From positions 1-20,786 of IMG/VR virus record IMGVR_UViG_3300031707_000229: 20,786 nucleotides of DNA; one strand, given 5' to 3'. Positions 54 through 18,929 of the stretch are shown here, in pieces (the stretch's first letter is position 1; every line of letters starts with the position of its first letter). The stretch comes from a virus. The position numbers were made by a program, and so were the translations under genes. A model generated the notes under the pieces. That model saw only the letters and a program-made list of their open reading frames with translations, was not told the origin of the DNA and made no database searches.

Positions 54-850
54 TGGATGATGAAGTCCTAGATATAAATGTTAGACGAAAGTTAGGACAG
101 AGTCCTGAATCCGTGATGAAGGATTTTATGGATAGAAATCCTTCTGAATATTTAAAGGGATTTTATTCGGGTAAAGTTGTTAATAATAAAGATCCTGAGA
201 GATTAGGAAAGTGTCAAATTAGAGTTTATGCATGTTTTGGGGAAGAGATTCCTGATAGTGATTTACCTTGGGCTTTACCAGATTTTGCATTTATTGGAAG
301 CACATTAGGTTCATTTATCGTTCCTCCGATAGGAGCTATTGTTAAAGTCTATTTTGATAATGGAGACATATATTTGCCTCATTATACAACAAAGGCGATG
401 AATGTTAATACTTTACCGTCCCAAAAGGATACTGATTATCCAGATAATATGGTTTTCTTTGAGACTGATAACGGAGATTACTTTACTATAAATAGAAAGA
501 GTAAACAAACTAAGTATTTTCATACAGCGGGAACTAATGTAGTTATTGAAAAAAATGGAGAAGTTAAAATATTTGTTGTTGATAATAAGACTGAAACTGT
601 AGTCGGAGATAACGTTTTTCAAAATGATCATCATGAACTTCCATTACTTAAAGGTAAAGTAACTATATTTAGAAATGGTAATATTAAAATTGAAGGACAA
701 GAAGTTTATATTGGACATATGGGTTTATTGAAAGTAGAAGGATCGACGGTTATACCGACTGGTATTGGTCCATTAAATGCTCTTCCAATTGATCCAATAA
801 CAGGAATTCCTCACTCAGGAAATATATGTGCGCCAGGATTACCAATATAA
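53..850 (+). CDS. Baseplate central spike protein, gp5/gpV-like, without lysozyme domain
   Basis: This 265-residue protein looks like the central spike at the base of a contractile tail, the part that first pierces the host envelope. Residues about 36-115 fit the OB-fold of the T4 gp5 N-terminus and P2 gpV: GFYSGKVVNNKDPERLGK, then a proline-rich PWALPD, then PPIGAIVKVYFDNGD and YLPHY. Residues about 130-220 are short alternating beta stretches (DNGDYFTINR, NGEVKIFVVDN, NGNIKIEG) as expected for a trimeric beta-helical needle. The end (TGIGPLNALPIDPITGIPHS) recalls the glycine/proline/histidine-rich tip of gpV or PAAR-type proteins; metal binding there is inference. T4 gp5 carries a lysozyme domain between these parts and this protein does not. 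The ATG at 53 is preceded by GAGG at 42-45 and overlaps the upstream stop. The assignment is by fold-type pattern, not by close identity. Confidence 0.8.
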   Translation: MDDEVLDINVRRKLGQSPESVMKDFMDRNPSEYLKGFYSGKVVNNKDPERLGKCQIRVYACFGEEIPDSDLPWALPDFAFIGSTLGSFIVPPIGAIVKVYFDNGDIYLPHYTTKAMNVNTLPSQKDTDYPDNMVFFETDNGDYFTINRKSKQTKYFHTAGTNVVIEKNGEVKIFVVDNKTETVVGDNVFQNDHHELPLLKGKVTIFRNGNIKIEGQEVYIGHMGLLKVEGSTVIPTGIGPLNALPIDPITGIPHSGNICAPGLPI

Positions 851-860
851 AGGATTAAAA

Positions 861-3800: not shown

Positions 3801-6800
3801 ACATCAGGTTATACATCCGGTAGTGTAGTTTTTATAGGATCAGATGGTAATTTAGCACAAGATAATAATAATTTCTTTTGGGATAATGTTAATAATAGAT
3901 TAGGTATTGGAACTAAAGTTCCTGATATGAGTTTACATGTTAGTGCAAGTAATTGGCATTTTGATAATTATAAAACTCATAGTTTTGGATCAATGGCCGC
4001 TGTGTTATTACAAGCTAAAAGATTTGAAATAGCTAGATTTGGAGTGGATAGAGGTAATTGGGCTGATTATGGTCCTGTAACTATTGAATTATTTAATAGA
4101 TATTTTTTTGATGGATATAAAAGATATACATTACAAGCAACTTATGGAACAGGTAATGATATTAAAGTTATTTTAAGAGAAGCTCATGGAATATCTTCAA
4201 ATTATTTTAGATTAAATTATGAGTGGGTTGTAGTATCTGGAAACGTTGGTTATGTTAGTGTATTTGTTGAAGTAGATTATTATAGTAGAGTTTACGCTAA
4301 AATATCACATCAGAGGACAATATCAACTACAAGTCCTCCTGCGTATCCTTCAGTTTGGATAAATGATAATTATACTTCGGCTGCTAATATATCAGCGTTT
4401 TATAATCTCGCATCATCATATGAGACAGCTGAAGTAGCAGCTGATACTTTATTTAAAAGAAATGTTTATATTCCTGGTACTTTATATTTAGATAATGTCG
4501 GTGGAGATACTTACTTGTATTCTAATTCTGATATTATATATTTTTATACTTCAGGGGTTAATAGATTAAGTATTGGTACGAATAGTTTATTAATGAATAT
4601 GCCGTTAGATATGAATGCTAATACTTTAATAATGGATGATGATGCGGATTCTTATATTAGGGCTCCTATTGATGATAGTATAGATTTTTATACTGCAGGG
4701 TCTCTTAAATTCAGTGTAACTAATTCTGGATTAGTATTGAATTTTCCGATTGATTTAGATGGTAATAGAATAATTCTTGATACTGATGGAGATACTTATT
4801 TAACGGCATCAGCTGATGATGTAGTTAAATTAATGTTCCCGAATGGATCATATTATGATTTTACTATTAACGGATTAGATTATAAAACTACAGCAACAAG
4901 TCATGAAATTCTTTTAACTGATTATAGTACAGACATTACAGCAAGTATTAGATTAGGGTTTTATAAATCTCATAATAATACTTTAGGAACTTTAACTCCA
5001 ACAATTTCAGGAGAAGTATTAGGTCAAATATATGCATGTGGTGTTAATTCTATTAGCGGATTTGCTACAGCTGCTGTTATATCTTTTAATCAGGATGGAT
5101 CAAGTTCGTCAACTAGAGCTCCAGCTAATATAGTATTTAAAACCGCAAGTACGTCATCTGTACTTGAGAGGATGAGATTTCCTTCATCTGGTACAATGTT
5201 AATGTCAACTGATATTGATTTAGATGGTAATAAGTTAATTTTAGATGCTGATGGAGATACGTATTTAACTGTTTCGTCCGATGATAATATTCAGTTTTAT
5301 AATGGTAACGTATATTCATTAAAATTGGATAGTAATGGTTATTTAAATTTAATAACATATTTAGATGGTAATAAGGGTGATAATTTAATTTTTGATAAAA
5401 GGAGAAATATAACATCAGCAGCACAAGCTAATGATGTTATAGGAAGTATAATATTTAGATCGAATGATAATTCATCGACTCCTGTTATGACTGATTATGC
5501 TCGTATTGAGTCTAAAATAATTCATCCAAGATTAAATGGTGAGACATTATCGTGTAATAATTCGGAATTAAATTTTTATATTAATACATATCCAGAACAA
5601 TCCGATCCAACAAATCCGATTTTATTATTAACTTTAGGACATAATTATAGTACACCTTTGTTTACAAGTGGTGGTTATGCCAGAATGCAAATTTATTCCT
5701 CTTATACAGATTCAAATCATCCGACAGTATGGTTAAAATCGTTATCAAGTCATGCTACATATGATAATGCTGGATTTACATTTGTTGTTAATAAAACTGA
5801 AGGCCCATTTGAAATAGTATATGATACTGATGGAACGAGTAATACTTTTGTCGATTTATTGAATTTAAATTCTTCTGATTTTCGTTTAAGTGTTTCTAAT
5901 GAAATAGATTTTTATGTTAATAATGCAAATATTGTAACTATAACTGAAGATACTCTTAAAATTTATGAAGGCGGAGTGCAAATATATAATGCTGCTTGTG
6001 GAATTAATACAGGAAGTCCAGATGGATTTACAATTTCGTTATCAAGTACAGATAATCCTTTAGATATTATATTAGAACAACATGAACAAGAAGCTGATAT
6101 TATATTAAAATATATGTTAGGAGAAGTTAAGATACAATCGCCTGGATATGATTCGGTTTTAAGATTAACGAATGATATAACAGGTCATACTTCATCAGAT
6201 GGATTAGTAATAAAAGTTGAAACTAATGGAAACTCTACAATAAATTTATTAGAGGAACATACATCCTTTAATATTGGATGTCGGGGAAGAGAAATAATAT
6301 CAATGTATAGTGATAATTCAATAACATTTGATCCATTAGCAAGTATTAATTTTTTCACTAATAATATTGCAAGAGTTCAGTTAAACAATGCTGGGATGTT
6401 TATAAGTGTTCCATTATATGTTGATGGATATCAGTTAATTTTGGATGCTGATAGAGATACTTATTTAACAGCTTCAGCCGATGATAATATTGATTTTTAT
6501 ACAAGTGGAGCGAAAAGGTTAAATATATCGAATAGTGGATTAGTGGTTAGTGGAACAACTACAGTATCGTCAATATCAGCTAGAGGAACAGCTGCTACAG
6601 TATATTTAACACATTCTAATGGATTGATCCAAAGTAGAACTGCTTCCCAAGTGTTAAGTGATTTAGGAGTTCCTTCATCAATTCATGGAGTAACCACAAG
6701 TTATTTAGCCAGGGCGATAAGTACGTCAGCTTTCGGTAATAGTCTTATACAGGATAATGGAACAGCATTAGGTATTAGATGTACTCCTAATAATACTTAC

Positions 6801-7574
6801 GCTCTTTCAGTTTCAGGAGATACTAGATTACAAGGTTTTAAACTTTATCTTGACGCTGATAATGATACTTATATTGATAACGGTACTGATGATAATATTT
6901 ATTTTGTAGTTAGTTCGACTGATAGAATGTGGTTGAATACTACCAGTTTAACAATGAATGTTGATATTGATTTAGATAGTAAGAGATTAATTTTAGATTC
7001 AGATGCTGATACTTATTTAGTTGCTTCAGCTGATGATAATATGGATTTTTATACAAATGGAATAAAAAGATTAAATATATCTAGTGATGGAAGTATTATA
7101 GGTAATAATATTTACAATTACAATGTTAAAGCCAATAATGATATTTCAATATCAGGTTTTAATTCAAATTCGATATTATCAAATTTAAGTGTTATTGTAA
7201 GATCGCAAAGTGGAACAGTTTGTATGAGAACAGGTTTAGCAAATGATGGGGCTACTGGCGGTCTAATAATAGCTAAAGTAACTTTGGGTAATAATGTTTC
7301 TGCTGATTTAGAAACGGTTTTAAATAAAACTTTTTACCTGGGTGGATTTTTGAAAATAGTATCTCAAACTAGATCTGTTTATGGAGAAGTAGTTATTAAT
7401 AATAATACTGTTTGGAAAGTATTTGATTATAGTAATAATATTGAAACTGTATCATCAAGTGGTTACTTTTGTATAATACCTGAAGGATTAGGCAAAACTG
7501 CTTTGTTAAATAGAATGGGATTTGAAGTGACTTTTCATTTGTGTTATTTTGGTGATTTTTCTTATTATTCTTAA
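861..7574 (+). CDS. Giant repetitive tail fibre protein (2237 aa)
   Basis: This is a very long virion fibre, probably anchored to the baseplate and used for host adhesion. The chosen start is ATG 861 because AAAGGA at 849-854 sits six bases ahead; an in-frame ATG at 828 lies inside the spike gene and has no ribosome site. Residues 88-94 and 194-200 begin two copies of a common fibre motif (LDDLSDV and LADLQDV, each followed by GDF.YYDG..W.NEP). Later come several GIG...P...LH(V/T) motifs and about eleven copies of a ~48-residue repeat, LILDxDGDTYLTASADDNIDFYTSG, between residues 555 and about 2080. Residues about 1032-1190 are non-repetitive and rich in aromatic residues, possibly a knob. The last ~150 residues are also unique, possibly the receptor-binding tip. 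No S74 intramolecular chaperone domain is recognisable at the C-terminus. The function is inferred from the repeat architecture and the neighbours; the receptor is unknown. Confidence 0.8.
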   Translation: MAIDAVILKDNILERLKEPYSMMTTSAVDQEVHLFDPEQVATMFGIADINSVRNVIWEEYNSRYSGLEAIIKALSDELEYEFENYWKLDDLSDVIITDVKLGDFLFYDGNSWVNEPYSATSFTNIVTNISNISYENNLSATLNQLNPNQLIYLSDNYTLSSVSDLSTWIIAGNSISIESENGTVTINANIISNLADLQDVSIPNVTNGDFLYYDGSLWINEPFLTSVQDIVNDMIGGSTYTSGSILFAGSDGLITEDNANFFWDDVNNNMGIGTSNPKMALHIAKCYNRLVYGGLDGSPDDFQIRNNVYYDYDDTRRESMVSGYSTQIDLRNSDGTIKFYTTTTSATSSNAAVTIVERMSIGNTGASITGRLLVTSAIGLGITSPTAQLHTSGTVRFEGAGTPVNGRVLTTDSDGNATWQNFGTISTSGYTSGSALFANIDGNIDQDNTNFFWDNVNKRLGIGNHTPESTLHVTGRVEAQNFYTEKLDGEIKGQVALIGGTSAMSGYVQWLDTAEVRKGYMGWDSSASNNLSITLEHSCQLNVVGGNVDINGNNLILDANGDTYINNGTEDNIKFYTSGVHRLSITNSGLIMSASYIDLDSNRLILDLNADSYLTASADDNIDFYTSGAKRLNISNNGLVVSGTTTVSSISARGTAATVYLTHSSGLIQSRTAAQVRSDIAAASSTHGVTTSYLARATSTTAFGNSLIQDNGTALGIRCAPNNTYALSVSGSTRLQGFDLYLDANNDTYISTSAIDDNIRFYTSGVHRLSITNSGLIMSASYIDLDGNRLILDVDGNSYLTTSADNVVDVYIGGANHVKIYNEGLRYQSGPTSNFECYGFSTDSNAYPALNFVKSHHDTIGTFQETLSAEALGSIAAYGVETDGGTDPAAVISFFQEGSSTTTRVPGQMRFYTSTTDAANNERMRILSNGNIGIGVTAPTAQLHTDGTLRFEGAGTPADGRVLTSDINGNATWEDFSFISTSGYTSGSVVFIGSDGNLAQDNNNFFWDNVNNRLGIGTKVPDMSLHVSASNWHFDNYKTHSFGSMAAVLLQAKRFEIARFGVDRGNWADYGPVTIELFNRYFFDGYKRYTLQATYGTGNDIKVILREAHGISSNYFRLNYEWVVVSGNVGYVSVFVEVDYYSRVYAKISHQRTISTTSPPAYPSVWINDNYTSAANISAFYNLASSYETAEVAADTLFKRNVYIPGTLYLDNVGGDTYLYSNSDIIYFYTSGVNRLSIGTNSLLMNMPLDMNANTLIMDDDADSYIRAPIDDSIDFYTAGSLKFSVTNSGLVLNFPIDLDGNRIILDTDGDTYLTASADDVVKLMFPNGSYYDFTINGLDYKTTATSHEILLTDYSTDITASIRLGFYKSHNNTLGTLTPTISGEVLGQIYACGVNSISGFATAAVISFNQDGSSSSTRAPANIVFKTASTSSVLERMRFPSSGTMLMSTDIDLDGNKLILDADGDTYLTVSSDDNIQFYNGNVYSLKLDSNGYLNLITYLDGNKGDNLIFDKRRNITSAAQANDVIGSIIFRSNDNSSTPVMTDYARIESKIIHPRLNGETLSCNNSELNFYINTYPEQSDPTNPILLLTLGHNYSTPLFTSGGYARMQIYSSYTDSNHPTVWLKSLSSHATYDNAGFTFVVNKTEGPFEIVYDTDGTSNTFVDLLNLNSSDFRLSVSNEIDFYVNNANIVTITEDTLKIYEGGVQIYNAACGINTGSPDGFTISLSSTDNPLDIILEQHEQEADIILKYMLGEVKIQSPGYDSVLRLTNDITGHTSSDGLVIKVETNGNSTINLLEEHTSFNIGCRGREIISMYSDNSITFDPLASINFFTNNIARVQLNNAGMFISVPLYVDGYQLILDADRDTYLTASADDNIDFYTSGAKRLNISNSGLVVSGTTTVSSISARGTAATVYLTHSNGLIQSRTASQVLSDLGVPSSIHGVTTSYLARAISTSAFGNSLIQDNGTALGIRCTPNNTYALSVSGDTRLQGFKLYLDADNDTYIDNGTDDNIYFVVSSTDRMWLNTTSLTMNVDIDLDSKRLILDSDADTYLVASADDNMDFYTNGIKRLNISSDGSIIGNNIYNYNVKANNDISISGFNSNSILSNLSVIVRSQSGTVCMRTGLANDGATGGLIIAKVTLGNNVSADLETVLNKTFYLGGFLKIVSQTRSVYGEVVINNNTVWKVFDYSNNIETVSSSGYFCIIPEGLGKTALLNRMGFEVTFHLCYFGDFSYYS
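1576..1709 (+). repeat. Partial third copy of fibre module B
   Basis: This stretch encodes a version of the TSGYTSGS..F..DG....DN.NFFWD.VN...GIG unit seen complete at 2016-2279 and 3678-3941. It lines up with the first complete copy at an offset of 570 bases (190 codons), for example at the shared TTCTTTTGGG at 1641 and 2211. It lacks the N-terminal half of the module (LHT.GT.RFEGAGTP). Confidence 0.7.
2016..2279 (+). repeat. Fibre module B, copy 1
   Basis: This 264-base in-frame module encodes TAQLHTSGTVRFEGAGTP through FFWDNVNKRLGIG to LHV. It aligns without gaps to 3678-3941 at a constant offset of 1662 bases (554 codons). The differences are mixed synonymous and amino-acid changes. Confidence 0.8.
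2670..3110 (+). repeat. Fibre module A, copy 1
   Basis: A 441-base segment of the giant fibre gene is duplicated in frame at 6435-6875, at a constant offset of 3765 bases (1255 codons). It covers one 48-codon repeat, a VSGTTTVSSISARGTAATVY segment, and an SYLARATSTTAFGNSLIQDN-type segment ending in a GI...P...LSVSG motif. Within it, 2787-2824 and 2970-3013 are identical to the other copy over 38 and 44 bases, while flanking parts differ at many synonymous sites. Confidence 0.85.
3381..3650 (+). repeat. Fibre module C, copy 1
   Basis: This encodes KSHHDTIGTF, GSIAAYG, AAVISFFQEGSSTTTR and ERMR. It aligns to 4926-5192 at an offset of 1545 bases (515 codons) with one codon of length difference near the end. 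It is more diverged than modules A and B; the similarity is mainly at protein level. Confidence 0.7.
3678..3941 (+). repeat. Fibre module B, copy 2
   Basis: Second complete copy of the module at 2016-2279, starting TAQLHTDGTLRFEGAGTP and ending in a GIG...P...LHV motif. It stays in register over its full length and is followed by the non-repetitive aromatic-rich domain of the fibre. Confidence 0.8.
4926..5192 (+). repeat. Fibre module C, copy 2
   Basis: Diverged second copy of 3381-3650, with KSHNNTLGTL, GQIYACG, AAVISFNQDGSSSSTR and ERMR at the same positions. It follows three tandem 48-codon repeats (4482, 4626, 4770). Confidence 0.7.
6435..6875 (+). repeat. Fibre module A, copy 2
   Basis: Second copy of 2670-3110, in register over the whole 441 bases. 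The tracts 6552-6589 and 6735-6778 are base-for-base identical to copy 1. After 6875 the copies differ by one codon in length and then diverge. Confidence 0.85.
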
Positions 7575-7597: not shown

Positions 7598-8065
7598 TTG
7601 AAACTAATTAATGTAATTTTAGGACCATTACCGGAAAAGCTTAATATATGTATCGAGTCGCAAAAGCGTTTTGCTGATTTGAATAATATGGAGTATATAT
7701 CTATTACTGAAATTCCGGAATGGGGTAAAAGATATGCAATGACTAATGCGATAGTAGATCGTATTAAGTTAGAATATTTAGCTAATGAGAATAATATATT
7801 AGCATGTGATTGGGATATTCAGTTATATGATAATTTTCAGTTACCTTTTAGACCTTCGTTAGGAGATAATGGTAATAATTTTATGTGGAATGGTAATGAT
7901 AAAGAAATTTTTAAAAAGAGTTTTGATGAATTAGTTGAATATGAAAAAAATCATTCAAAGTATTATTGTGAGTATTGTAGGGCTATGAAAATTTTAAATA
8001 AAAATGAATATTTATCAGTTCGTTTTGATAATAAAACATATAAGCATATAAGATGGCGACAATGA
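7598..8065 (+). CDS. Small glycosyltransferase-like protein with a DxD motif
   Basis: This 155-residue protein has a pattern like the sugar-nucleotide-binding core of DxD-type glycosyltransferases (the GT32 type): AIVDRIKLEYL at residues 51-61, then NNILACDWDIQLYDNFQLP with the candidate metal/nucleotide-binding DWD at 71-73. In that family an Asp-x-x-Arg helix precedes a strand ending in DxD by a similar distance. It is shorter than typical members (above ~200 residues), so it may be a minimal or degenerate enzyme. A CEYC pair at about residues 128-131 is unexplained. It starts with TTG, has GGAG upstream, and sits between the giant fibre and gp25, which makes modification of a fibre or of a surface glycan possible; both are inference. 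The family call rests on motif order only. Confidence 0.5.
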   Translation: MKLINVILGPLPEKLNICIESQKRFADLNNMEYISITEIPEWGKRYAMTNAIVDRIKLEYLANENNILACDWDIQLYDNFQLPFRPSLGDNGNNFMWNGNDKEIFKKSFDELVEYEKNHSKYYCEYCRAMKILNKNEYLSVRFDNKTYKHIRWRQ

Positions 8066-8120: not shown

Positions 8121-8510
8121 ATGGTTAATTTTAGAGAATTATCAGATAATTGGGCTTATGATTTAGATAAAGATCCTATTCGTAATGGTGAAATTAAGGA
8201 TGGAGATGTTTTAAATCAAAGTATTGAAATGATTTTAGCTACTGCTTTTGGAGAAAGATTATTTAACCCTTCGTTTGGAGCCGGTTTACAATATAAAATA
8301 TTTAATGTATTTACAACTTCCGAAGCTAATGCAATTTTAGATGAAGTAGCTCAAAATATTAAAATGTGGGAAGATAGAATAACAGTTGTTGAAAGTCAGA
8401 TGAATTTTATTATTAATCCGGATCAAAATTACGTTATTCTAATTATTCCTTATATTATTAATCGAACAGGTGTAAAGAGTGTGTTCAAGAAAAAAATAAT
8501 CAATGACTAA
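8121..8510 (+). CDS. Baseplate wedge protein, gp25/gpW family
   Basis: The product is a 129-residue baseplate wedge subunit, close to the ~130 residues of T4 gp25. It shows the family signature around residues 44-61: GERLFNPSFGAGLQYKIF, that is, Arg followed by a short span to P.FG..L...lF. In T4 and P2 this protein joins the wedge core (gp6/gpJ) to the sheath through a sheath-like handshake domain. The family is often labelled gp25-like lysozyme, but its role is structural. It starts at ATG 8121 behind GAGGA (8110-8114) and is followed 11 bases later by the gp6-like gene, the usual W-J order. Identification is confident at family level. Confidence 0.9.
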   Translation: MVNFRELSDNWAYDLDKDPIRNGEIKDGDVLNQSIEMILATAFGERLFNPSFGAGLQYKIFNVFTTSEANAILDEVAQNIKMWEDRITVVESQMNFIINPDQNYVILIIPYIINRTGVKSVFKKKIIND

Positions 8511-8521
8511 TGAGGTTTTAA

Positions 8522-11209
8522 ATGGCAAAGAACTTTCTAAAATATAATTCATTAACATATGATGATATTTTAAAACAAATTAATGATAAGTTAGCATCAG
8601 ATCCAAGATTTGATAATTTTAGAGAAAGTAGTATAGCTCAAACTATAATGGAGATCTTTGCAGCTTGTACTGAATTGACAACTTTTTATGTAGAACGAAG
8701 AGCTGAAGAGTGTTTTTTTGATACTTTAAAATTAAAGAGTTCTGCAATACTTTTGGCTAGATCTTTAGGATATGATGTACAAAGACCGGTTCCTGCAAGT
8801 GGTAAAATCAAGTTAAAGTTAAAAGGTGATTTTACAGGAGTTTTTTCTGAAGCCAATGAAATATTACAGATTCCATATCATTCAGTATTTTCATTTGAAG
8901 GGCAAAATTTTCTTTTAAAGAAAACTTTGACTTTCAATGTTAATTCTAGTATGCAAAATGAAATGGTAGCTCAAGGAACAGCTTATGAATCTGATTATAT
9001 TTCAGTTGATTATAATAATGATGATATTTTTATTATTCAAGGTGAAATTAAAGAAAAAATTATAGATGGAACCAATAATGCTCAAGTAGGATCTAAATTC
9101 CAAATATATCGAATAGATGATGTAACAGTAGCAAATACATATGGTAATGAGGATTATGATACTCCTACTACCAAAATTTGGGTAGGAAATACAAAAAATG
9201 AATCAACAGAGTATCAAATAGATAGAAGATCGTTAATTAATTGGGAAACGATATCATTAATTCAAGAAGGTGTTCAGAATTATGTTAGTGTTTTAAGAAC
9301 TGCAGTTACTGAAGGAGTTGAAATTTTATTTGGTGATGCTAAATTTGCTGCTTTAGGAGCTTCTGTTAGTGGAACTGGAGCTCAGACTTCTTTTGATAAT
9401 ATTTATTTTCAATATTTATCGACTAATGGATTAAAAGGAAATAAATCAGGAGTTAAAGATAAAAAGATTAATTTTTCGGATAAAATATATTCAACTGTAA
9501 ATGGAATTGATATAACTAGTAAAGTTCAATTTTGGTTTAATAGTAATATTACTGGTGGATCTGATATGGAAAGTATTGATGAAATTAAAGCTAATGCTCC
9601 TGGAATATATTATAGTCTTGATAGATTAGTCACCAAAGAGGATTATCGTAATTTTTTAAAGGCGTTAACTAATCCTATTAATATTAAAAATGCATTAGCT
9701 TGGGGTGAACAAGAAGAAATTATTAAAAAAAGAACCGATGCGATTCTTGCTCTTTTTAATGTTGTATTTTGGACGGCAGTTGGAAGTCTTTATAATACTG
9801 ATGTTTCTCCTTATTCAGTTAAGACTGGATCAGATGATATGCAGTCTGTAGTTTTAGATTATGATTATAATGAAAATGATATTGTTGATCAAAGTTATTA
9901 TAATGTGTATGCTAAGCAAGAGATAGTTCGCCAATTACAAACTTATGAAACAAGTGGATTTGTTAAAAGAATAATAAGTCAAAATGCTATAGTTGATCAA
10001 TTGACTTATTGGAGTCAATATCAACCTAATATGGAAGTTGCTTTTAATTATACTTCAGATAATTCTTTATATGATCCTAATATTATTACATCAGCAACTG
10101 TTCTTATAGATGTTTCTGATATGAATGGAAATACTTATTCTACTAATAATTTAGCTATGGCTAAAATTGCTGAAAGATTAATATCAGCATTAAGAGTTAT
10201 AAATGATACAAGAGGAAATGTAGGAACAAATGCGAATAATGGTAGTTTGGCATTTGAAAATATTAATGTAATATATGATTCGACAGCTTCTACTTTTGAA
10301 ATAATTCAAGATTTAAATGATAAATGTTATATATCAAGTTTTACAGGATTAGCTTCTTCAGCAATGGGATTAAACGGAATAACAGCAACAAGTGTTTATG
10401 TAACCGATGAAGTTAAATTGAGCCAGAATATAATAACGGTTTTGGATAAGTTAAATAATAGAAGTCAGGTAACTGTTAAAAATATTTATGTAAGTCCGAT
10501 AATTAAAACATTCGAATTAAAAGGAACAGTTATTATTCAAGCTTTATATGATCGAGAAGAAGAAAGAACGAAGATAAATGATTCTATATATGAATGGTTA
10601 GATGTTAGATCGGATTTTAATCAACAAATTTATGTTTCAAATTTACTTGAACTTGTCGAACAATATCCTTCAGTCAAATATGCTAATATTAGATTAGTTC
10701 CGAAAACGATCGAAGGAGGTCCTTTTTATGTAACAGGACAAAACTCAACAATTAATTCTTTATTTGATCCAGGATTTTTTAGAAATTTAGTATATAGTTA
10801 TTTGGATACAGCAATACATAATTATATTGGAGACGCAAATACTTACGACGTTAGTGGTAGTACTGAAAAAAATATTAATTATAATACAACAATAGTACAA
10901 GAATATGCATATAAGTGGTATCCGCAAGTTACTGAAAGAAGTTTTTTTGAAACTTTTGTTAAAACGGTTTATAATGGAATAATAGATTTAGGATTAGAAA
11001 CTTTAGCTAATAGTCGTCAATTTAATACTGTGATGAGTGATATTCGTAAAGACTTGATAAATATTATAGGATATAATATGTTAGATACGATGGGTAATAT
11101 AGCTCCTGAATATAACGCAAATCATGAGTATATTAAAGGTGGATATTCTTTAGGAAATGAAATTGTTAAAATAGATAGTAAATTAGTGTTCCAATATGCG
11201 ACTAATTAA
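8522..11209 (+). CDS. Baseplate wedge protein, gp6/gpJ family
   Basis: This 895-residue protein is the scaffold of the baseplate wedge; in T4 gp6 dimers form the ring around the hub. The N-terminus is characteristic: LTYDDILKQINDKL, then FRESSIAQTIMEIFAA and a helix TELTTFYVERRAEECFFDTL, then SSAILLARSLGYDVQRPVPA leading into a beta domain with SGKIKLKL. A second recognisable stretch, YYSLDRLVTKEDYRNFLKAL near residues 362-381, matches the conserved Y..LDR.VT..DY motif of J-type proteins. It is longer than T4 gp6 (about 660 residues), the extra length falling in the second half. ATG 8522 follows GAGG (8512-8515) and lies 11 bases after the gp25 stop. Function follows from family and context. 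Confidence 0.88.
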   Translation: MAKNFLKYNSLTYDDILKQINDKLASDPRFDNFRESSIAQTIMEIFAACTELTTFYVERRAEECFFDTLKLKSSAILLARSLGYDVQRPVPASGKIKLKLKGDFTGVFSEANEILQIPYHSVFSFEGQNFLLKKTLTFNVNSSMQNEMVAQGTAYESDYISVDYNNDDIFIIQGEIKEKIIDGTNNAQVGSKFQIYRIDDVTVANTYGNEDYDTPTTKIWVGNTKNESTEYQIDRRSLINWETISLIQEGVQNYVSVLRTAVTEGVEILFGDAKFAALGASVSGTGAQTSFDNIYFQYLSTNGLKGNKSGVKDKKINFSDKIYSTVNGIDITSKVQFWFNSNITGGSDMESIDEIKANAPGIYYSLDRLVTKEDYRNFLKALTNPINIKNALAWGEQEEIIKKRTDAILALFNVVFWTAVGSLYNTDVSPYSVKTGSDDMQSVVLDYDYNENDIVDQSYYNVYAKQEIVRQLQTYETSGFVKRIISQNAIVDQLTYWSQYQPNMEVAFNYTSDNSLYDPNIITSATVLIDVSDMNGNTYSTNNLAMAKIAERLISALRVINDTRGNVGTNANNGSLAFENINVIYDSTASTFEIIQDLNDKCYISSFTGLASSAMGLNGITATSVYVTDEVKLSQNIITVLDKLNNRSQVTVKNIYVSPIIKTFELKGTVIIQALYDREEERTKINDSIYEWLDVRSDFNQQIYVSNLLELVEQYPSVKYANIRLVPKTIEGGPFYVTGQNSTINSLFDPGFFRNLVYSYLDTAIHNYIGDANTYDVSGSTEKNINYNTTIVQEYAYKWYPQVTERSFFETFVKTVYNGIIDLGLETLANSRQFNTVMSDIRKDLINIIGYNMLDTMGNIAPEYNANHEYIKGGYSLGNEIVKIDSKLVFQYATN

Positions 11210-11219
11210 GGATTAAATA

Positions 11220-14165
11220 ATGGCTTCTTTTTATGTATTAATCGATAATTCGTATTCATCAACAGGATTAGGATCTACCAATAGTCCTTTTAATTGGACT
11301 CAGCTATTAAGTTTAATAGGAACTCAAAATTATACTCCTAATCCTTCAGATACTTATTTAATTTCAGGAACCAGAAATTTAACAGCAGATCAAAATATTT
11401 ATATAAGAGCCAGAGTTCCGACAGTTGGACCAGTAAACACTATTAATTTAGAAGGATGGAATCAAACTCCTTGGAAAATTTTAAATCCTTCATATGATAT
11501 AAATTTCTATACTTCATCGACAAATATTAAAATATATGATGCAATGATACAAGCTGATTATTTAAGTTTTTTTGGTCCTAATATATCTACGGCTATTGGT
11601 GGTATAGAATTTCAAAATGATTATTTAAAATCAAATGTTTTAAATATTCCTTATAAAAATTATGTATATTTTTATGCGATGACATGTAAAACAAATAGAT
11701 TAGAACTTTTTCAAACTAATCAATTTATAACATCAAGATCAATTATTGATATTCCTGGGTTTACAACATGGACTGGATTAATAGCTTCGATAAATTATAG
11801 TACTATAACAACATCTAGTTATATGTTGAATGACATAGGTATTGTTACTACAAATGTACAAGATAATTGGGTTGGAACATCAGCTTTAAATTTAAATATA
11901 TCGGCAGTTGATACTGAAAATTTTAAACACACAAATTCTAATTGGAGTACTGTTTTAAATGGATTATCAGCTGCTACAAACTATAGAGCATGGAATGGAG
12001 ATACTAGGGATGGAATTGGAGCTTTATATTTTCCAACTATAAATGCTTCAAATTATTTTGTTTCAGCTAGTACATCTCCTGGTATTTCTGCAAATGCTGA
12101 TGAAGATATTTATTTCGTAGTGTCAGGATCCGATTTAACAGGAAATCCTTATACTGATTATGGAATTTCGGCAATTAAATATCAATGGAATTATCCAAAT
12201 ACTGATGTTGCAGATATAATAAGTTATAATAATAGTATATTAACTCATAGTTATTCAGCTACTGGAAGATATTATCCTAAAGCTACGTTATATTCACATA
12301 ATTCGTGGTATTCAAGACCTTTGACAATGGAATATCTTGTAATAGGATCATTTAATGTAATAATAAAAATATACGATCGTTCGGCTTTTAGTTATCAAAC
12401 TTTCTTAATTCCTCCGACAAATGATTTAACTGATGGTATAACTAAGCCTTTAACGAATTTAATTATATCTGCTGTTAGTGATGAAATTCCTCCAATTAAT
12501 TATTATTGGACAATTGATGGAGAAGTTTATGAAGACCCTTCTTATTCTTTTTTAGAAAAAGCTTTTAATATCGAAGGAACTCATAATATAGTTTTAAATG
12601 CATATGAAGGATTTTATATTAGTCAGACTTCTGCTACTATATTAGTTTCTGCTGTTTCTGCTGCTACATATTATGTTGATCTTAATAGTGATTATCTTGT
12701 ATGTGCATGGAATTTAGGAACATCAGCTGATCCTTTTAACCAGTATGAATTTAGAGGTAGATTAGAATCTGTGTTGGAAGGAAGTGCTGAAATACAGGGT
12801 AATGGGGAATATGGAGATATTTATAAATTAAAAGGGGAAATGTTATATCCATATCCAAGATATCCAACTAATTATATTATTAGTGCTGATCCAAATAAAA
12901 ATTTTACTATTGAAGATTGGGATGCATCAATTTACGGTCCTTGGTTAATGCAATATCCTAACGGAACTTCATATTATGGATTGAATAATATATCTCTAGT
13001 CGGATGTAAATTAAAAAATGGAATTATTTATAATGAAAAAAATGAATATGGACACGGAGGAAGTATATATTTAACAAATGTTTATAATATGTTTATAGTA
13101 AATACAGGTATTGATGCTGAAATAATAATAAATCCTTATAATACGTTATTATCAGCATACGGAGATACCAGAATAGTTGCAACAAGTGCTTATTCAAATA
13201 TTATAGGATCAACTATATATTTTAATAATGAAGATAATTATATATCGTCTTATTGGGAGGATAGATTTGTATCTGCGGATTATCATGATCAAGCATATTA
13301 TAATTTAAATATAATTGATTCTGTAATTACTGGATTGAGAAATTTAGATCAAATATATTCAGATGATGATGATATAAATTTTGAATATTGTAAATTATAT
13401 ATCTATAATAGCGTGTTTGATAGATCATATCTTGATTTGTCTGAAGAATTTGAAATATCAGCTAATGTTAATTCACAATATGATTGGACTCCTCCAACTC
13501 CATATCCTTTTACATCTAATCATGATTTTTATAATTTGTATGGTAAAGGTATTGATTATATTATAGCTAATAAATCTTTATTATTACCTTTTTATGGAAT
13601 TCAAACTCCTCCTAATCCTGGATATAATTTTTCGGCTTATGAAGGATATGAAAAAGGATTGTTTGGAGAATTAAGAGTTAATTATGGAGATATAGACAAT
13701 TTTGGTCATATAGGATCATTTTATTTCGGACAATCAACATTTATTTTTACACCTGATGATGATCAAATTTTTAGAGTTTCAGCATCTTTTTTAACTCCTA
13801 ACATATCATCTTATAATTTAATTGAATATGGTACAATATTACCAAATTTAATAACAGTAAAAGCAATTTTATTAGAACCAACAATTTATTCTACCGAAAA
13901 TATTTATGTTGATTTTGTCGGAGTTCCTCGAACAGGGACATCTCCTTTAGTAGTCGATTTTACTGCTACAGTTAATTTAGGATCCGATTTTAAAAATAGA
14001 TATAGGATAACTAAATACAAATGGTATTTTGATGCGGATTGTTCTACTCTACCAGAAAATGAAATACCAGAAGAGACATATGTTCCTACGATTACAAAAG
14101 TTTTTAACGGATATGCTGGACAGAAATATAGTGTTAGACTTTGCGTTGAAGTTGTTCAGATATAA
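11220..14165 (+). CDS. Large virion protein with PKD-like domains, inserted in the wedge operon
   Basis: I do not recognise this 981-residue protein as a whole. The last ~85 residues (897-981) form a clear PKD-type beta sandwich: GTSPLVVDFTATV, then KYKWYFD, then VFNGYAGQKYSVRLCVEV. Two more diverged PKD-like stretches lie around residues 285-380 (IKYQWNYP ... HSYSATGRYYPKATL) and 380-480 (PPINYYWTIDGE ... IVLNAYEG). The N-terminus (FYVLIDNSY..., GLGSTNSPFNWTQLL) and residue ~490 onward (TYYVDLNSDYL, GTSADPFNQYEF) look like two starts of a similar solenoid-type domain. No signal peptide or membrane segment is visible. It sits 10 bases after gp6 and 12 before the gpI-like gene, with AAGGA at 11208-11212 overlapping the gp6 stop. 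A baseplate-attached decoration or glycan-binding role is inference. Confidence 0.6.
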   Translation: MASFYVLIDNSYSSTGLGSTNSPFNWTQLLSLIGTQNYTPNPSDTYLISGTRNLTADQNIYIRARVPTVGPVNTINLEGWNQTPWKILNPSYDINFYTSSTNIKIYDAMIQADYLSFFGPNISTAIGGIEFQNDYLKSNVLNIPYKNYVYFYAMTCKTNRLELFQTNQFITSRSIIDIPGFTTWTGLIASINYSTITTSSYMLNDIGIVTTNVQDNWVGTSALNLNISAVDTENFKHTNSNWSTVLNGLSAATNYRAWNGDTRDGIGALYFPTINASNYFVSASTSPGISANADEDIYFVVSGSDLTGNPYTDYGISAIKYQWNYPNTDVADIISYNNSILTHSYSATGRYYPKATLYSHNSWYSRPLTMEYLVIGSFNVIIKIYDRSAFSYQTFLIPPTNDLTDGITKPLTNLIISAVSDEIPPINYYWTIDGEVYEDPSYSFLEKAFNIEGTHNIVLNAYEGFYISQTSATILVSAVSAATYYVDLNSDYLVCAWNLGTSADPFNQYEFRGRLESVLEGSAEIQGNGEYGDIYKLKGEMLYPYPRYPTNYIISADPNKNFTIEDWDASIYGPWLMQYPNGTSYYGLNNISLVGCKLKNGIIYNEKNEYGHGGSIYLTNVYNMFIVNTGIDAEIIINPYNTLLSAYGDTRIVATSAYSNIIGSTIYFNNEDNYISSYWEDRFVSADYHDQAYYNLNIIDSVITGLRNLDQIYSDDDDINFEYCKLYIYNSVFDRSYLDLSEEFEISANVNSQYDWTPPTPYPFTSNHDFYNLYGKGIDYIIANKSLLLPFYGIQTPPNPGYNFSAYEGYEKGLFGELRVNYGDIDNFGHIGSFYFGQSTFIFTPDDDQIFRVSASFLTPNISSYNLIEYGTILPNLITVKAILLEPTIYSTENIYVDFVGVPRTGTSPLVVDFTATVNLGSDFKNRYRITKYKWYFDADCSTLPENEIPEETYVPTITKVFNGYAGQKYSVRLCVEVVQI

Positions 14166-14177
14166 AAGGAAATGTAA

Positions 14178-16130
14178 ATGGCATCTTTATTTTATGTAAA
14201 TTATCGATTAACAGCTAATAGTGCTCAATCTTTATCAGCCGCTATGGCAACTGGATGTTTATATCAAGCTAAAGATGAACATTTTGTCACAAGTGGAGAT
14301 ATTTTTTATCTTAATTCAGATGATGATTTATACGGAACTCCATTAAGTTCTGCTAAAGGATCTGCAATAGGCCAAGGAGATTTGTTTCAAATAACGAATA
14401 TCGCTCCTTCGACAGCTGCAGTTGTATATATTTCTTCATTATTAAACGATCATGTTGATGATAATATTGGTTTATTACCTAATGGATTAGTTTTACCTTA
14501 TAATACTTTAGAAACTCCATCAGATTATTTACCAAATTATAAATTTTATTTACCAAGACCTATTGATAATTTGAAAGTTGTTTTTAATGGAATAGTAGGA
14601 GGATTAGGAAAAGAATTATATTTGTGTGTATCTGATACAGATCCTACTTTATTAGAATCTACAATTTTATCAGCACGATCTGGTACAAATGATATTTCAA
14701 TTTTTTCGGGATCTCCTGTCACTGGAACATCAGCATTAATTGATTTTGCTCAATTTTCGAATGCTATAGCTGGAAAAGAAATAATTTTTAGATGTCGTTT
14801 AACATATGGATCTCCTTATGAAAATACTTTTAATTATTATACTGGAGATATTGAAAGAAATACAGTATTTCATTTAGGAACTACAAGTCCAGGTCTAGTA
14901 ACACAAGTTAGTGGAACTGGTATATCAAGATTTTTAATTAATCCGTATACTGGTTCAATAACAATTGAAGATTGGAACGATGGTGATTATAATGATTATA
15001 CTGGAACTATAACGGATCCTATTTTAAGCGCTATAGGAACAAATGAAGACCCTTCACAAAATTATTTACCAATTACTGCATGTGAGTGTAAGTCAGATTA
15101 TATTGAATTGTATGGTCAAAAAAATAATGCCAGATATGGATCTTGTCGTAATATTAATTTAAAAGAATATTTACCGCAATATTTACAAGGCGGAGATACT
15201 GAAAAGTTCTTATTATTTTTTGAAGATTATTTAAATGAAATGTTTTCTGGATTATGTGGATTTCAAGTAAGTGGAACAGAATTGAATATAAATAAAAACT
15301 ATCAGACTGCTGTAGGAGCGTCTAGTGCTTTAACAGATGATTATGCTAGGAATTTTTCATATAATTTTTCAGCTACATCAGCAGAAAATGCACCAACTGA
15401 AGCTAATGAAGTTAGTGCTATATCTATTATATCTCCTAATAATTCTATTGATATTGATCCAAGGATTTCAATTTTAGAAAAGATAAATAGGATAACAGAG
15501 TTACATGATCCTGATTTAATAGATATTGAATATATTCAGCATTTTGCAAGTAATTTAGGATATAATATAGATATATATAGGAATGAAGTTGGTATAAGTG
15601 GAACTGGAACATTAGGATTCGGTGATTTTGGGGAAGATTCGAGTTTAGCAACTGACTCCGAAAAATATTTAAGGTTGATGATAAGTAATTTACCTAACTG
15701 GTATAAAATAAAATCTACTAATAATGCTATTAAAGTAATGTTATATTCGTTTGGTTTGATAGGAGATATAGTAGAATATTATTCAAATAATTATTTACCA
15801 GTAGCTGAAGGTGGTTTGTGGAGATTAAACGCTAACCATGATATTACTGAAATACCTGAAACATGGTTTCCGACTCCGCATTTTACTATTTTAATTAGAA
15901 TAGACGATAGTACTGATATATCATTCGATATGGCAAGAAGACAGAAAATAATAAGAGCAATTGAGTCGATAAGACCTGTAAATACTGTTTTTAGAAAGTT
16001 ATCAGCGTATTTAAAAAGAACTTTCGAAATGAAAATAGTAGCTTTTATGAGATTTACAAGATATATTCAAATTAAATCTGACGGATGGACTAATGCTTGG
16101 AGTGGAACACCACCTGCATATCCTTCATAA
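14178..16130 (+). CDS. Baseplate wedge protein with gpI/gp7-like C-terminal domain
   Basis: Residues about 430-640 of this 650-residue protein fit the P2 tail protein I pattern, which corresponds to part of T4 gp7 in the wedge: ILEKINRITELHDPDLIDIE, then FASNLGYNID, a helix YLRLMISNLPNWYKIKST, then NNAIKVMLYSFGLIGDI, and later FDMARRQKIIRAIESIRPVN with a beta tail. The first ~420 residues are of unknown type, mostly beta, with repeated SGTG/SGTGxS stretches; MASLFYVNYRL resembles the MASFYVLIDNSY opening of the gene before. In P2 the corresponding protein lacks this front part. ATG 14178 is chosen over ATG 14172 because the latter is followed at once by TAA; AAAGGA at 14165-14170 is the ribosome site. 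The position after gp6 supports the wedge role. Confidence 0.72.
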   Translation: MASLFYVNYRLTANSAQSLSAAMATGCLYQAKDEHFVTSGDIFYLNSDDDLYGTPLSSAKGSAIGQGDLFQITNIAPSTAAVVYISSLLNDHVDDNIGLLPNGLVLPYNTLETPSDYLPNYKFYLPRPIDNLKVVFNGIVGGLGKELYLCVSDTDPTLLESTILSARSGTNDISIFSGSPVTGTSALIDFAQFSNAIAGKEIIFRCRLTYGSPYENTFNYYTGDIERNTVFHLGTTSPGLVTQVSGTGISRFLINPYTGSITIEDWNDGDYNDYTGTITDPILSAIGTNEDPSQNYLPITACECKSDYIELYGQKNNARYGSCRNINLKEYLPQYLQGGDTEKFLLFFEDYLNEMFSGLCGFQVSGTELNINKNYQTAVGASSALTDDYARNFSYNFSATSAENAPTEANEVSAISIISPNNSIDIDPRISILEKINRITELHDPDLIDIEYIQHFASNLGYNIDIYRNEVGISGTGTLGFGDFGEDSSLATDSEKYLRLMISNLPNWYKIKSTNNAIKVMLYSFGLIGDIVEYYSNNYLPVAEGGLWRLNANHDITEIPETWFPTPHFTILIRIDDSTDISFDMARRQKIIRAIESIRPVNTVFRKLSAYLKRTFEMKIVAFMRFTRYIQIKSDGWTNAWSGTPPAYPS

Positions 16131-16178: not shown

Positions 16179-18929
16179 ATGGCAAATGTAATGATAACCG
16201 AACAAGGTTTAGATTTTGTAATGAACGCGCACGATGATGGCGCTTTAATTAGTATAGCTTATTTTGTTCCCGTTTATGATAATCGTATTGACGGAAATGT
16301 AAGATCAAGTGGATTAACTTCGGCTTTTGCTGAAATTGCGGATGAATCATTAACTGATCCTATTGGTGAAATTATATGGAACGTAAGCGGAACTCCTTAT
16401 AATATATCAGAATCAGATTCATTTCTTATATCAGCAGGAACTATAGTAGGAAACGATGTTACTAATACTTTTCAAGATGACTCCGAACCAATAAATTTAT
16501 ATAACGGAATTCCACTCTCAAATCATGTTAGCGGTACCGATTTAGAAAAAACAACAGCCGGAAATCTTACGAATTGGACAATGACAGGATTAACTAGGGT
16601 TACTGGTAACAATAGTATGCCTACTTCCACTTCAATAGATTATTTTCCTGTAGTTGATTATTATCCAATTTATGATTCAGCTGAAGAAGGTAGATTAAGA
16701 GGAACTTTTAAATGCTTGATTTCTAAAGATGTTGGAAGATTTAAATTTAATAAAATAGCCCTTTATGCCATTCAATATGTAAACGGAGTTCCGAATTCCA
16801 ATATTGAATTTTTTGGTGAAGCTTATTTAAACGAACCCATTGTTAAAGCAGGATTATCTCAAGACGGTTTTGACAATATTATATTAGACCTTCAAATAGA
16901 TTTACATTCAGTTAGTTCTACATGGGATGAAGTTTTCTTTTCATCATCTGCGGATTATTGGAGTCATTCACCAGGAGGACTTTATTTTCCTAATAAAGTC
17001 GGTATTGGACAATATGATAATAATGTTTATGAAATGGAATCTGCTTTGCATGTTAGAAGAACTAGAGATACTTCAGGTGCAATTGATTTAACTATTCCTC
17101 AATTAAGATTAGATCATGATAACAATCATTGGGTTTCGTTTGAAGTTTCATCAACCGCATGGGATATACCGCATGGTTCACAAGGATCTGATTTGTTACT
17201 TACAGGGCCTACTTTATTTAGTACTGATTCTGTTGCATTATTACCTAAATTAGATATGACTTGGAATCTCGGTACGAGCGCATCGCATTTTAGATCAGCT
17301 TGGATAAAAGAAACATTACCTTTGAAGATTCCTTTAAACGTTGAACATGATTATGGCACTGCCGTTAGTATTAATAATGGAAAAATATTATTAGGATCTC
17401 CTAACGGACTATTAGAATGGCCAACAAGATCAGAATATGCTATAAGAGTTTTAGACGCTTCTATTTCAATTACTTCAGGCGCTGATTTGTACGGAAGTTT
17501 TAAAGGCGGAGATTTAATCAGAAATGCGGACGAATTATTAATTTATACAACATTTTGTACTTATGCTTATCCATATACTGAATATAAAGCTTCTGATATT
17601 GTAATAGTAGCTGGAGTAAATGAACAAGGAACTTATACTTCAATAAACGGACAAACCGGATTAACTCATAAAAATCTTTTACATGAATTTGTAACAGATT
17701 TAGATTTTGTTACAAATACAAGTAACGAAGCTAAATTATTATTTGCTGGTAGAGGCGGTTTAAAATTGACTGCTCCAATCGAAATATCAACTAAAAGAAA
17801 TAGTTATTTGTATAATCAGGTAACTTATAATCATTATAATGCTATGATAATGACTAGAGAGCCTTATTTCTTTATTGGAGCTGGTTTATCAGAAGAAATA
17901 TTATGTACTAATTGGGATACTATAAATCGATATATAACTAACGCAACATGGGACTTTTGTGCTTTATTAACTACAACTGAATCGAAATTATTTTTAGTAG
18001 CTAAAAATATAATTACAACTGGGGATATTATTCCTAAATTAGATAATTTAGATGATATCGGAACAGATGCTTTAAAATATAAAAAAATATACGGACATTC
18101 AATGGATTTTGATTGGGGTGCAACTCAAATTTCAACATTATCAACAGGATCTATTTATTCATATTTAATGGGATTTTATTTTAGTTCATATATTTATACT
18201 TCGTCACAAAAAACTGCAATTATTTCATTATTACCAGGAAGTTCTGTATATGATAAATATTATACTAACGGAATATTTAGTACCATATCAAATATAGGAA
18301 ATAGTAGTCAAAGAATAACGAATGGTTATTTCGATTTAGTAGATACAACAAATATTCAAGTAAATACTTTAACAACTCCTAATTTACAGACGCAAGTAGG
18401 TAATATAACAACGAGTTTAGGTAGTTGGAGTACTTTAACAAATATTATATCTACAAATATTGTAAGTATAGATCCGGCATATTATCCAACTATTCAATCA
18501 CAATATTGTATTATGGGTAAAACTTTATTATTAAATTTAAAATTGACAGGATCTTTACCTGCTAGAACTGTAGGATATCATGAAAATTTATTTCAAATAA
18601 AAAATTGCTTTGGTAAAAATATAAATGTAAATAATTTGGGATCTATTACGACATCAATTGTTGATTTAAGTAGTGTAATAAATAGTTTACAAATAAAAGG
18701 ATCTTCAAATGGATCAATCAATGCGACTTATTTACCAGGAGGACAAAATTTTATAGTATGGTATCAATCACAATTAAATAATTTATATTATTATAAGTTA
18801 TTTACAGTACATTATGATGGAGTTTTGGATATGTTATCTTTTTATGCACATCCAAAAGCATTACCGACAGATAGGGCAATTTCAGGATCAATATATCCAA
18901 CAGAAATGTTATTAACGTTTAGTATTTAA
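16179..18929 (+). CDS. Tail fibre protein with tail-collar-type N-terminus
   Basis: The N-terminal ~250 residues of this 916-residue protein fit the phage tail-collar fibre N-terminal domain that attaches fibres such as P2 gpH to the baseplate. The matching parts are MITEQGLDFVMNAHDDGALI at the start, then GRFKFNKIALYAIQ and EFFGEAYLNEPIVKAG, the region that in the family carries a regular F.f..I.l.a pattern. After this come GIG and LHV motifs, then two copies of a shaft-end motif: KLDMTWNLGTSASHFRSAWI near residue 354 and KLDNLDDIGTDALKYKKIYG near residue 618. The last ~150 residues are unique and may be the receptor-binding tip. No S74 chaperone domain is seen. It follows the gpI-like gene, as gpH follows gpI in P2. 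The ribosome site is AAAGGGG at 16164-16170. Confidence 0.78.
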   Translation: MANVMITEQGLDFVMNAHDDGALISIAYFVPVYDNRIDGNVRSSGLTSAFAEIADESLTDPIGEIIWNVSGTPYNISESDSFLISAGTIVGNDVTNTFQDDSEPINLYNGIPLSNHVSGTDLEKTTAGNLTNWTMTGLTRVTGNNSMPTSTSIDYFPVVDYYPIYDSAEEGRLRGTFKCLISKDVGRFKFNKIALYAIQYVNGVPNSNIEFFGEAYLNEPIVKAGLSQDGFDNIILDLQIDLHSVSSTWDEVFFSSSADYWSHSPGGLYFPNKVGIGQYDNNVYEMESALHVRRTRDTSGAIDLTIPQLRLDHDNNHWVSFEVSSTAWDIPHGSQGSDLLLTGPTLFSTDSVALLPKLDMTWNLGTSASHFRSAWIKETLPLKIPLNVEHDYGTAVSINNGKILLGSPNGLLEWPTRSEYAIRVLDASISITSGADLYGSFKGGDLIRNADELLIYTTFCTYAYPYTEYKASDIVIVAGVNEQGTYTSINGQTGLTHKNLLHEFVTDLDFVTNTSNEAKLLFAGRGGLKLTAPIEISTKRNSYLYNQVTYNHYNAMIMTREPYFFIGAGLSEEILCTNWDTINRYITNATWDFCALLTTTESKLFLVAKNIITTGDIIPKLDNLDDIGTDALKYKKIYGHSMDFDWGATQISTLSTGSIYSYLMGFYFSSYIYTSSQKTAIISLLPGSSVYDKYYTNGIFSTISNIGNSSQRITNGYFDLVDTTNIQVNTLTTPNLQTQVGNITTSLGSWSTLTNIISTNIVSIDPAYYPTIQSQYCIMGKTLLLNLKLTGSLPARTVGYHENLFQIKNCFGKNINVNNLGSITTSIVDLSSVINSLQIKGSSNGSINATYLPGGQNFIVWYQSQLNNLYYYKLFTVHYDGVLDMLSFYAHPKALPTDRAISGSIYPTEMLLTFSI

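Follow-up and report, generated by a model that had tools for sequence, protein, structure and literature searches.

A modular protein between gp6 and the gpI-like gene

The stretch of DNA analyzed here, referred to as the window, is the whole 20,786-bp virus record IMGVR_UViG_3300031707_000229 from IMG/VR, and it may be a genome fragment. Between its baseplate wedge gene gp6 and a gpI-like gene lies an open reading frame (ORF) of 981 codons, as the initial annotation had reported. The ORF starts with ATG, 10 bases separate it from the gp6 stop codon, and 12 bases separate it from the next gene. A chance origin is ruled out by this length, because the longest stop-free run in 200 mononucleotide shuffles of the window is at most 211 codons. 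We refer to residues 1-822 of the product as A and to residues from about 813 to 981 as C. Judging from sequence profiles and predicted models, the protein looks like two beta-helix-type modules, which would account for most of it, together with a central pair of immunoglobulin (Ig)/PKD-type domains and a further Ig/PKD-type domain at the C terminus:

11220..14165, + strand: 981-residue A-plus-C fusion protein, with homologues in relatives
11220..12044, + strand: predicted beta-helix-type module 1, residues 1 to ~275 (module hidden Markov model, HMM, at residues 1-150, E = 3.9e-23)
12045..12659, + strand: two predicted Ig/PKD-type domains, residues ~276-480 (VIA structure comparison, family profile, and Pfam in a homologue)
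12660..13700, + strand: predicted beta-helix-type module 2, residues 481-827 (module HMM at residues 479-636, E = 1.1e-34)
13656..14162, + strand: C unit, residues ~813-981, with GLFGE and IGSFYFG motifs, a linker, and a predicted Ig/PKD-type domain at residues ~893-981 (alignments and model)

A duplicated PKD/Ig-type protein at this place had been recognized from the start, but it was taken for a one-off insertion, and the two beta-helix-type modules were missed. The protein has no match over cut-off in Pfam, PHROGs or NCBIfam. Its domain make-up is read from the profiles of relatives.

Internal duplication and the beta-helix-type modules

Profile comparison bears out the internal duplication that the initial annotation proposed from two similar domain starts. 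Residues 1-282 are homologous to residues 480-822 (hhalign E = 1.9e-14), with a score of 105 against a maximum of 15.7 in 30 column shuffles, and the middle region matches neither. A direct BLASTP alignment of the two helices is weak (E = 0.10), and it is the profile comparison that settles the duplication. Module 1 ends near an RDGIGALYF motif (residues 263-271). A search of 556 ORFs with an iterated module HMM gives 54 copies, located in 35 of these ORFs, and reversed decoys give none; three of the 35 are truncated duplicates from overlapping loci, and two of the copies are in the window protein. Every copy lies downstream of gp6 and either upstream of gpI or within it (gpI is out of view in L041). 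Since gp6 and gpI served to pick out these loci, the search of whole records with the A profile described below is the better test of place.

The AlphaFold model of residues 1-827 has modest confidence, with a mean predicted local distance difference test score (pLDDT) of 63.9 and a predicted template-modeling score of 0.46. For residues 481-827, the best VIA match is the rhamnogalacturonan lyase 5olq (Z 11.8, root-mean-square deviation 5.0, 253 aligned residues). Foldseek matches of the A model include Hoc of phage RB49 (E = 2.9e-4), and at least 60 BFVD entries match it at E <= 0.001, the named ones including phage Ig/fibronectin type III (FN3) tail proteins and Hoc proteins with low TM-scores. 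One of ten proteins scanned, the 807-residue gene product of the relative L030, exceeds the cut-off for choice-of-anchor Q (NF041518; 30.9 versus 25 bits), and this match stops just ahead of its IGAFYFG motif. Choice-of-anchor Q surface proteins are linked to the right-handed parallel beta-helix. The window protein has no match to this family and sits in a phage baseplate operon.

The lyase match raises the possibility of an enzymatic tailspike in which one or both putative beta-helices degrade host polysaccharide. Phage depolymerases often have a beta-helix fold, and module 2 has two conserved acidic residues, D568 (8 of 9 rows) and D700 (9 of 9), that a glycosidase could use. D568 falls in a WD..YGPW motif of the module consensus, however, and may be structural. 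No lyase-type basic residue stands out either: conservation of lysine, histidine and glutamate stays below 85% at every position of the shallow A alignment of 10 rows, and R819, at the very end of module 2, is the only arginine there to reach that level. On these sequence and model comparisons, we regard a degradative role as improbable.

Among the structural matches listed, which comprise Ig/FN3/PKD folds and one polysaccharide-lyase beta-helix, there is no known wedge protein of the kind that the initial annotation had raised as a counter-indication, a result that falls short of an exclusion.

The central and C-terminal domains

The central region gives the better evidence for PKD domains. 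VIA aligns residues 271-480 with Ig/FN3 domain pairs at Z values of up to 10.6, and within this region residues 377-479 match the PKD structure 1l0q at Z 8.7, tied with Fc-receptor Ig domains. The family profile of the homologues matches collagenase PKD at the center (E = 1.2e-5), and among the Pfam PKD families tested (PF00801, PF18911 and PF16820) PKD_4 matches the central region of the 811-residue homologue in L025 with 36.5 bits against a cut-off of 27 (E = 5.1e-9). The window protein itself matches only PKD_3, below cut-off (15.6 versus 26.3 bits, E = 0.015, residues 287-352). The initial annotation described a clear PKD domain at the C terminus and two weaker ones, a ranking that has to be corrected.

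The C-terminal domain is predicted to be an Ig/FN3-type sandwich. Against bona fide PKD domains it scores 28.1 with hhalign over 22 columns (maximum of 16.5 in 50 shuffles), which lends support to the original call; "clear" is too strong a word for it, however, since Pfam PKD has no match here in the window protein and, of 15 aligned members, hits a single one, weakly (E = 0.029). The conserved IGAFYFG-like motif ahead of this domain is seen in two alignments, with 11 and 15 members. The model of the C unit has a mean pLDDT of 61.6, and of the last 10 blocks, in the C-terminal domain, 8 are at 78-94. A search of PDB with the C unit profile gives zero matches.

The C unit also occurs alone, without a helix, as a 172-residue protein in L042 and a 161-residue protein in L095, where gpI is not recognized. 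Occurrence without helices fits an adaptor better than a receptor binder, which suggests the former role for C. Wherever both C and gpI are recognized, C is in the final cassette gene before gpI. The two are immediate neighbors in all of these cases but L052, which has a 200-residue gene between them. The stretch between A and C varies among relatives.

The cassette in uncultured relatives

The relatives, cited here by locus, come from scans of viral contigs seeded on gp19, gpI, A and gp6. Homologues beside gp6 in other phages, which the initial annotation proposed looking for, are present in these uncultured relatives at the gp6-gpI interval. The cassette parts are spread there over at least two genes, with A on the gp6 side and C on the gpI side; the whole of A and C in one gene is seen in the window only. 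Representative layouts, with lengths in residues, are:

L042: A 777, putative glycosyltransferase 210, modules 575, C 172, gpI 324
L025/L044: A 811, 306, 763, C 623, gpI 544
L037: A 1020, 597, C 748, gpI 547
L031/L067: 571 (second half of A), C 416

The relatives L028, L041, L098 and L110, with others, form a second group, whose A profile extends over two consecutive genes. The C genes of L044, L046, L047, L049, L063 and L067 carry modules of their own, and L050 has one module-plus-C gene without A. The gpI N-terminal part is swappable: it is absent in L042, consists of modules in L047 and L052, and is of PKD type in the large records G003, G004 and G005. In L053, A is split (144 and 646 residues) and C is fused to the first ~70 positions of gpI. 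At L053:9167-11146 the gpI core runs over two ORFs, the first of them fused to the C unit, and the same arrangement is found in L054. Near its N terminus, the C-bearing protein at L025:14909-16777 contains an extended low-complexity linker rich in Ser (SSESSSDSS-like repeats).

These fusions bear on whether the protein belongs to the virion at all. A late-expressed assembly factor, or another non-structural protein merely located within the operon, would be consistent with the small, non-structural-looking glycosyltransferase-like genes in the same interval of some relatives, and the virion location assigned to A and C is itself indirect. Extracellular proteins and virion surface proteins typically have this domain make-up, however, and C (in L053) and modules (in L047 and L052) are fused to gpI, so that we give a non-virion role very little weight.

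Position survey and gp6 phylogeny

A gp6 survey seeded with nine gp6 rows, all from cassette carriers, gives 74 loci that fall into 62 clusters at 95% identity. Next to gp6 there is an A or module gene in 26 clusters, gpI directly in 12, and other genes followed by gpI in 9; the remaining 15 are truncated or unassigned. Where gp6 aligns to that of the window over at least 600 residues, an A or module gene is present in 26 of 29 assignable clusters. The 981-residue protein is thus a fused form of a common cassette. A one-off insertion is ruled out, since A and C recur in relatives at this position. The accompanying premise that the J and I genes are usually adjacent applies to only 12 of the 47 assignable clusters, and 11 of these 12 are more distant by gp6.

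The three exceptions are L085, in which gp6 matches over its full length and the gpI core is mostly present (profile positions 120-342) with neither A nor C between them, L099, which has no A, and L103, which has neither part. The absence of cassette parts in these loci points to an accessory role.

In the gp6 tree, 11 of 13 cassette rows belong to one 12-row group (support 90/95, not starred), whose other member, L051, is without A and C. The remaining two cassette rows group with L050. Rows in which gpI is adjacent to gp6 (L064, L066 and L070) join the tree at an open fork, which is compatible both with a single gain followed by losses and with multiple gains.

Seven large records of 124-264 kb were searched whole as a test of position. 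All 15 A-profile matches, which occur in five of these records and not in the other two, fall within the gp6-gpI interval or in the gpI N terminus. The same is true of 14 of 15 PKD_4 matches; the other is at G003:129283.

The large records also bear on a second explanation, in which A and C are structural wedge parts that replace T4 gp8, gp10 and the outer gp7 domains and are needed for baseplate assembly. None of the seven records has a match to Phage-Gp8 (PF09215) or one over cut-off to T4_gp9_10_N (PF07880), for which there is a single sub-threshold match (E = 0.10), although these negatives are limited by possible record fragments and by divergence, and a very divergent gp8 or gp10 would escape the search. 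The window protein does not match the T4 gp8 or gp9-gp10 Pfam profiles at E <= 1. The high frequency of A or module genes after gp6 is what this explanation would predict, and large proteins follow gp6 in other phages: a 1016-residue protein in Pelagibacter phage HTVC008M, with a baseplate-wedge match and a head closure annotation, and a 3048-residue virion structural protein in cyanophage S-PM2. Against it stand the three loci that lack A or both parts, and free shuffling of modules would be unusual for a core building block. A structural wedge part is unlikely in our estimation, if somewhat less so than an enzyme.

Some relatives differ in this interval. In a more distant one, at L061:2666-9244 (the same record as L107), it is occupied by a 2193-residue NHL-repeat protein with no recognized C. 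Two tandem gpI-core genes of 330 and 358 residues directly follow gp6 at L058:2536-4613 and also in L057. In the distant relatives L127-L138, a gene of 163-170 residues directly follows gp6 in 11 of 11 loci with a visible downstream side. The gp6 gene itself lies in two overlapping reading frames in L029 and L108.

A candidate wedge-mounted appendage

We consider it reasonably probable that the 981-residue protein is a modular wedge appendage in which C docks at gpI/gp6 and A projects, and that it is adhesive, an interpretation built on sequence profiles, models and gene order. What the analysis shows is the ORF, its domain make-up and duplication, the conserved position, the shuffling of modules, and the fusions of C and of modules to gpI; presence in the virion, docking through C and adhesion are inferred from these. 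The projecting part would consist of two stiff right-handed beta-helix-type segments with two Ig/PKD-type hinge domains between them. The IGSFYFG motif and Ig/PKD-type domain of C would form the dock that holds the appendage on the gp6/gpI wedge. Most likely, the projecting part would make reversible contacts with a cell-surface or environmental polysaccharide, or it would decorate and stiffen the baseplate. Phages would alter the appendage by gain, loss, splitting and fusion of modules between gp6 and gpI while C stays at the gpI end. No lectin family is found in the Pfam scan of the window protein, which was the extent of the lectin search.

Several points weigh against this interpretation. 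The beta-helix assignment depends on one VIA match (Z 11.8) and sequence features because the A model, at pLDDT 63.9, is only of modest confidence, and the best Foldseek matches of that model are Ig/FN3 folds. In C, the motif and linker are modeled at a pLDDT of about 50 or below, the VIA matches of the predicted sandwich to Ig/FN3-type folds (Z up to 6.9) stay below Z 8, where a match may reflect no more than a common arrangement, and Foldseek finds nothing for the C model at E <= 0.001. The fusion of the whole of A with C is known from a single metagenomic contig, and the gp6-gpI intervals of L085, L103, L107 and L114 have no recognized C. Finally, gene neighborhood and fusions indicate association rather than a binding surface.

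If the appendage interpretation is right, then these phages carry on the baseplate wedge a second, reshuffled surface-binding set apart from the usual tail fibers, and a small portable domain may be the plug. It would assign a place and likely role to large proteins whose member in the window has no family match over cut-off in the libraries searched, and it would aid the prediction of host-range determinants in large uncultured phages. Module docking to a contractile baseplate would also become directly testable.

A broader and more tentative proposal is that the gp6-gpI interval in a large uncultured T4-related branch could be a dedicated docking bay on the wedge, with C as the adaptor next to gpI and the rest as exchangeable payload. 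This payload would be duplicated beta-helix/PKD arrays in most close relatives and the NHL-repeat protein in L061/L107. If the docking bay exists, then wedge-mounted appendages would change over evolution through cassette exchange, and would do so independently of the classical tail fibers.

Comparison with described proteins

The protein appears to be undescribed, as first suggested. In addition to the lack of PHROGs and NCBIfam matches, tblastn with the 981-residue and A proteins finds nothing in 50,697 phage records, and pattern-seeded scans for A and gpI in 84,980 species, each represented by one genome, give no confirmed match. Single-sequence scans of viral contigs with A or gp6 of the window likewise find none. 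The C-bearing L005 gene matches five phage records through query residues 16-365 only, almost all of them ahead of the C unit.

By analogy, the cassette protein may work like tentaclins, Hoc-type decorations and PKD-bearing receptor-binding proteins, although membership in none of these groups is established. Tentaclins, which are phage Ig-domain receptor-binding proteins, resemble it in having an Ig array and a variable distal part, and the passages of PMC10743442 considered here report that their conserved C-terminal Ig domain is presumed by the authors to be the virion anchor. The tentaclin N terminus is a C-type lectin domain varied by retroelements (PMC10743442, same passages). Unlike tentaclins, the window protein has a distal part of duplicated beta-helix-type modules, its N terminus is homologous to module 2, and its gene lies between gp6 and gpI.

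T4 Hoc, Hoc-like proteins, and Sf14 gp20 and its homologues have PKD/Ig-like domains on the virion surface that are thought to be adhesive, according to passages of PMC11821841 and PMC13370021. Hoc-type proteins are on the capsid there, whereas the window gene is in a baseplate operon and encodes predicted beta-helix-type modules. The receptor-binding proteins of Bacillus myophages Deep-Blue and Vp4 are large tail proteins with a PKD domain like the collagenase PKD structures 2Y72 and 4JRW (passage of PMC11406892), both of which are also matched by the family sequence profile here. They differ in being single chains with a C terminus like the T5 L-shaped fiber, and a gp6-gpI cassette does not figure in that passage (PMC11406892).

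S-PM2p084, the 3048-residue protein mentioned above, has a post-gp6 position like that of the window protein, which means that a large protein at this place is not new in itself. It has a YHYH domain and a weak wedge match, and its homology to A is unsupported (hhalign E = 0.16). What appears to be new is the combination of a beta-helix/PKD cassette, a separable C unit and exchange between gp6 and gpI, for which no description was found among the literature matches listed (titles, abstract starts and passages).

Neighboring genes

The window encodes, in order, a gp5-type OB protein (Phage_base_V, 2.4e-7), a 2248-residue fiber-like protein, a small putative glycosyltransferase, gp25, gp6, the 981-residue protein, the gpI-like protein, a 916-residue fiber-like protein, a 165-residue protein, the gp19 tube (phrog_45 in PHROGs, 5.1e-20) and RegA (phrog_242, 2.2e-28). 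The neighbors discussed here are:

7598..8065, + strand: small protein, putative glycosyltransferase; like genes are inside the cassette of some relatives
8121..8510, + strand: gp25/W baseplate wedge (Pfam GPW_gp25, 2.9e-11)
8522..11209, + strand: gp6/J baseplate wedge protein, 895 residues (tblastn matches in 192 phage records)
14178..16130, + strand: gpI-like wedge protein, 650 residues; core from residue ~299, N-terminal part swappable
16179..18929, + strand: tail-fiber-like protein in the gpH position, 916 residues; N terminus conserved beside gpI in relatives

The P2 tail-gene order is W-J-I-H. The tail genes of the window are in a P2-like W-J-(x)-I-H order in a phage with T4-type gp19 and RegA. 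A passage of PMC6300606 likens TssE/F/G both to gp25/6/7 and to W/J/I, and the aquatic moraphages (PMC12619734) have the gp6, gp25 and gp19 families in common with the window. For gp6, the matches listed (30 of the 192 records) span the first ~400 residues and, where annotated, are named gp6/baseplate wedge or J.

The gpI role of 14178-16130 is assigned from position and gene order (gp25, gp6, x, gpI, gpH-like fiber) because the Pfam evidence is weak: Tail_P2_I scores 13.4 bits, below its curated cut-off of 20.6 (E = 0.07), and, of the 11 family members, three reach E <= 0.1 (0.019 at best). The minimal version of gpI is the 324-residue protein of L042, whose core is 42-52% identical to the gpI-like core across 10 aligned rows. 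Neither the gpI-like protein of the window nor the L042 gpI core has a tblastn match in the phage records (zero of 50,697), and a PDB profile search with the core gives three weak, unrelated matches. A relationship to the HTVC008M wedge protein is unsupported (E = 0.45, not significant); the match falls on a KGT-like motif that we take to be typical of gpI/gp7.

The 7598-8065 protein matches a 200-residue gene product of L003 (blastp 34%, E = 1.9e-6). Putative glycosyltransferase genes also accompany tail genes at L030:17319-17918, L042:12337-12966 and L050:7167-7784, in each case between gp6 and gpI. Gly_transf_sug matches only the L050 protein, below cut-off (E = 0.0021), and has no match in L030 or L042. 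That such genes travel with tail-protein genes suggests that virion proteins may be glycosylated.

At L005:7326-9716 the gp19 tail tube protein has an extra C-terminal part of ~600 residues, for a total of 797. The 2248-residue fiber-like protein of the window (828-7574) has many near-repeated segments, and a stretch of its translation starting TTVSSISARGTAATVYLTHS is present twice in nearly identical form.

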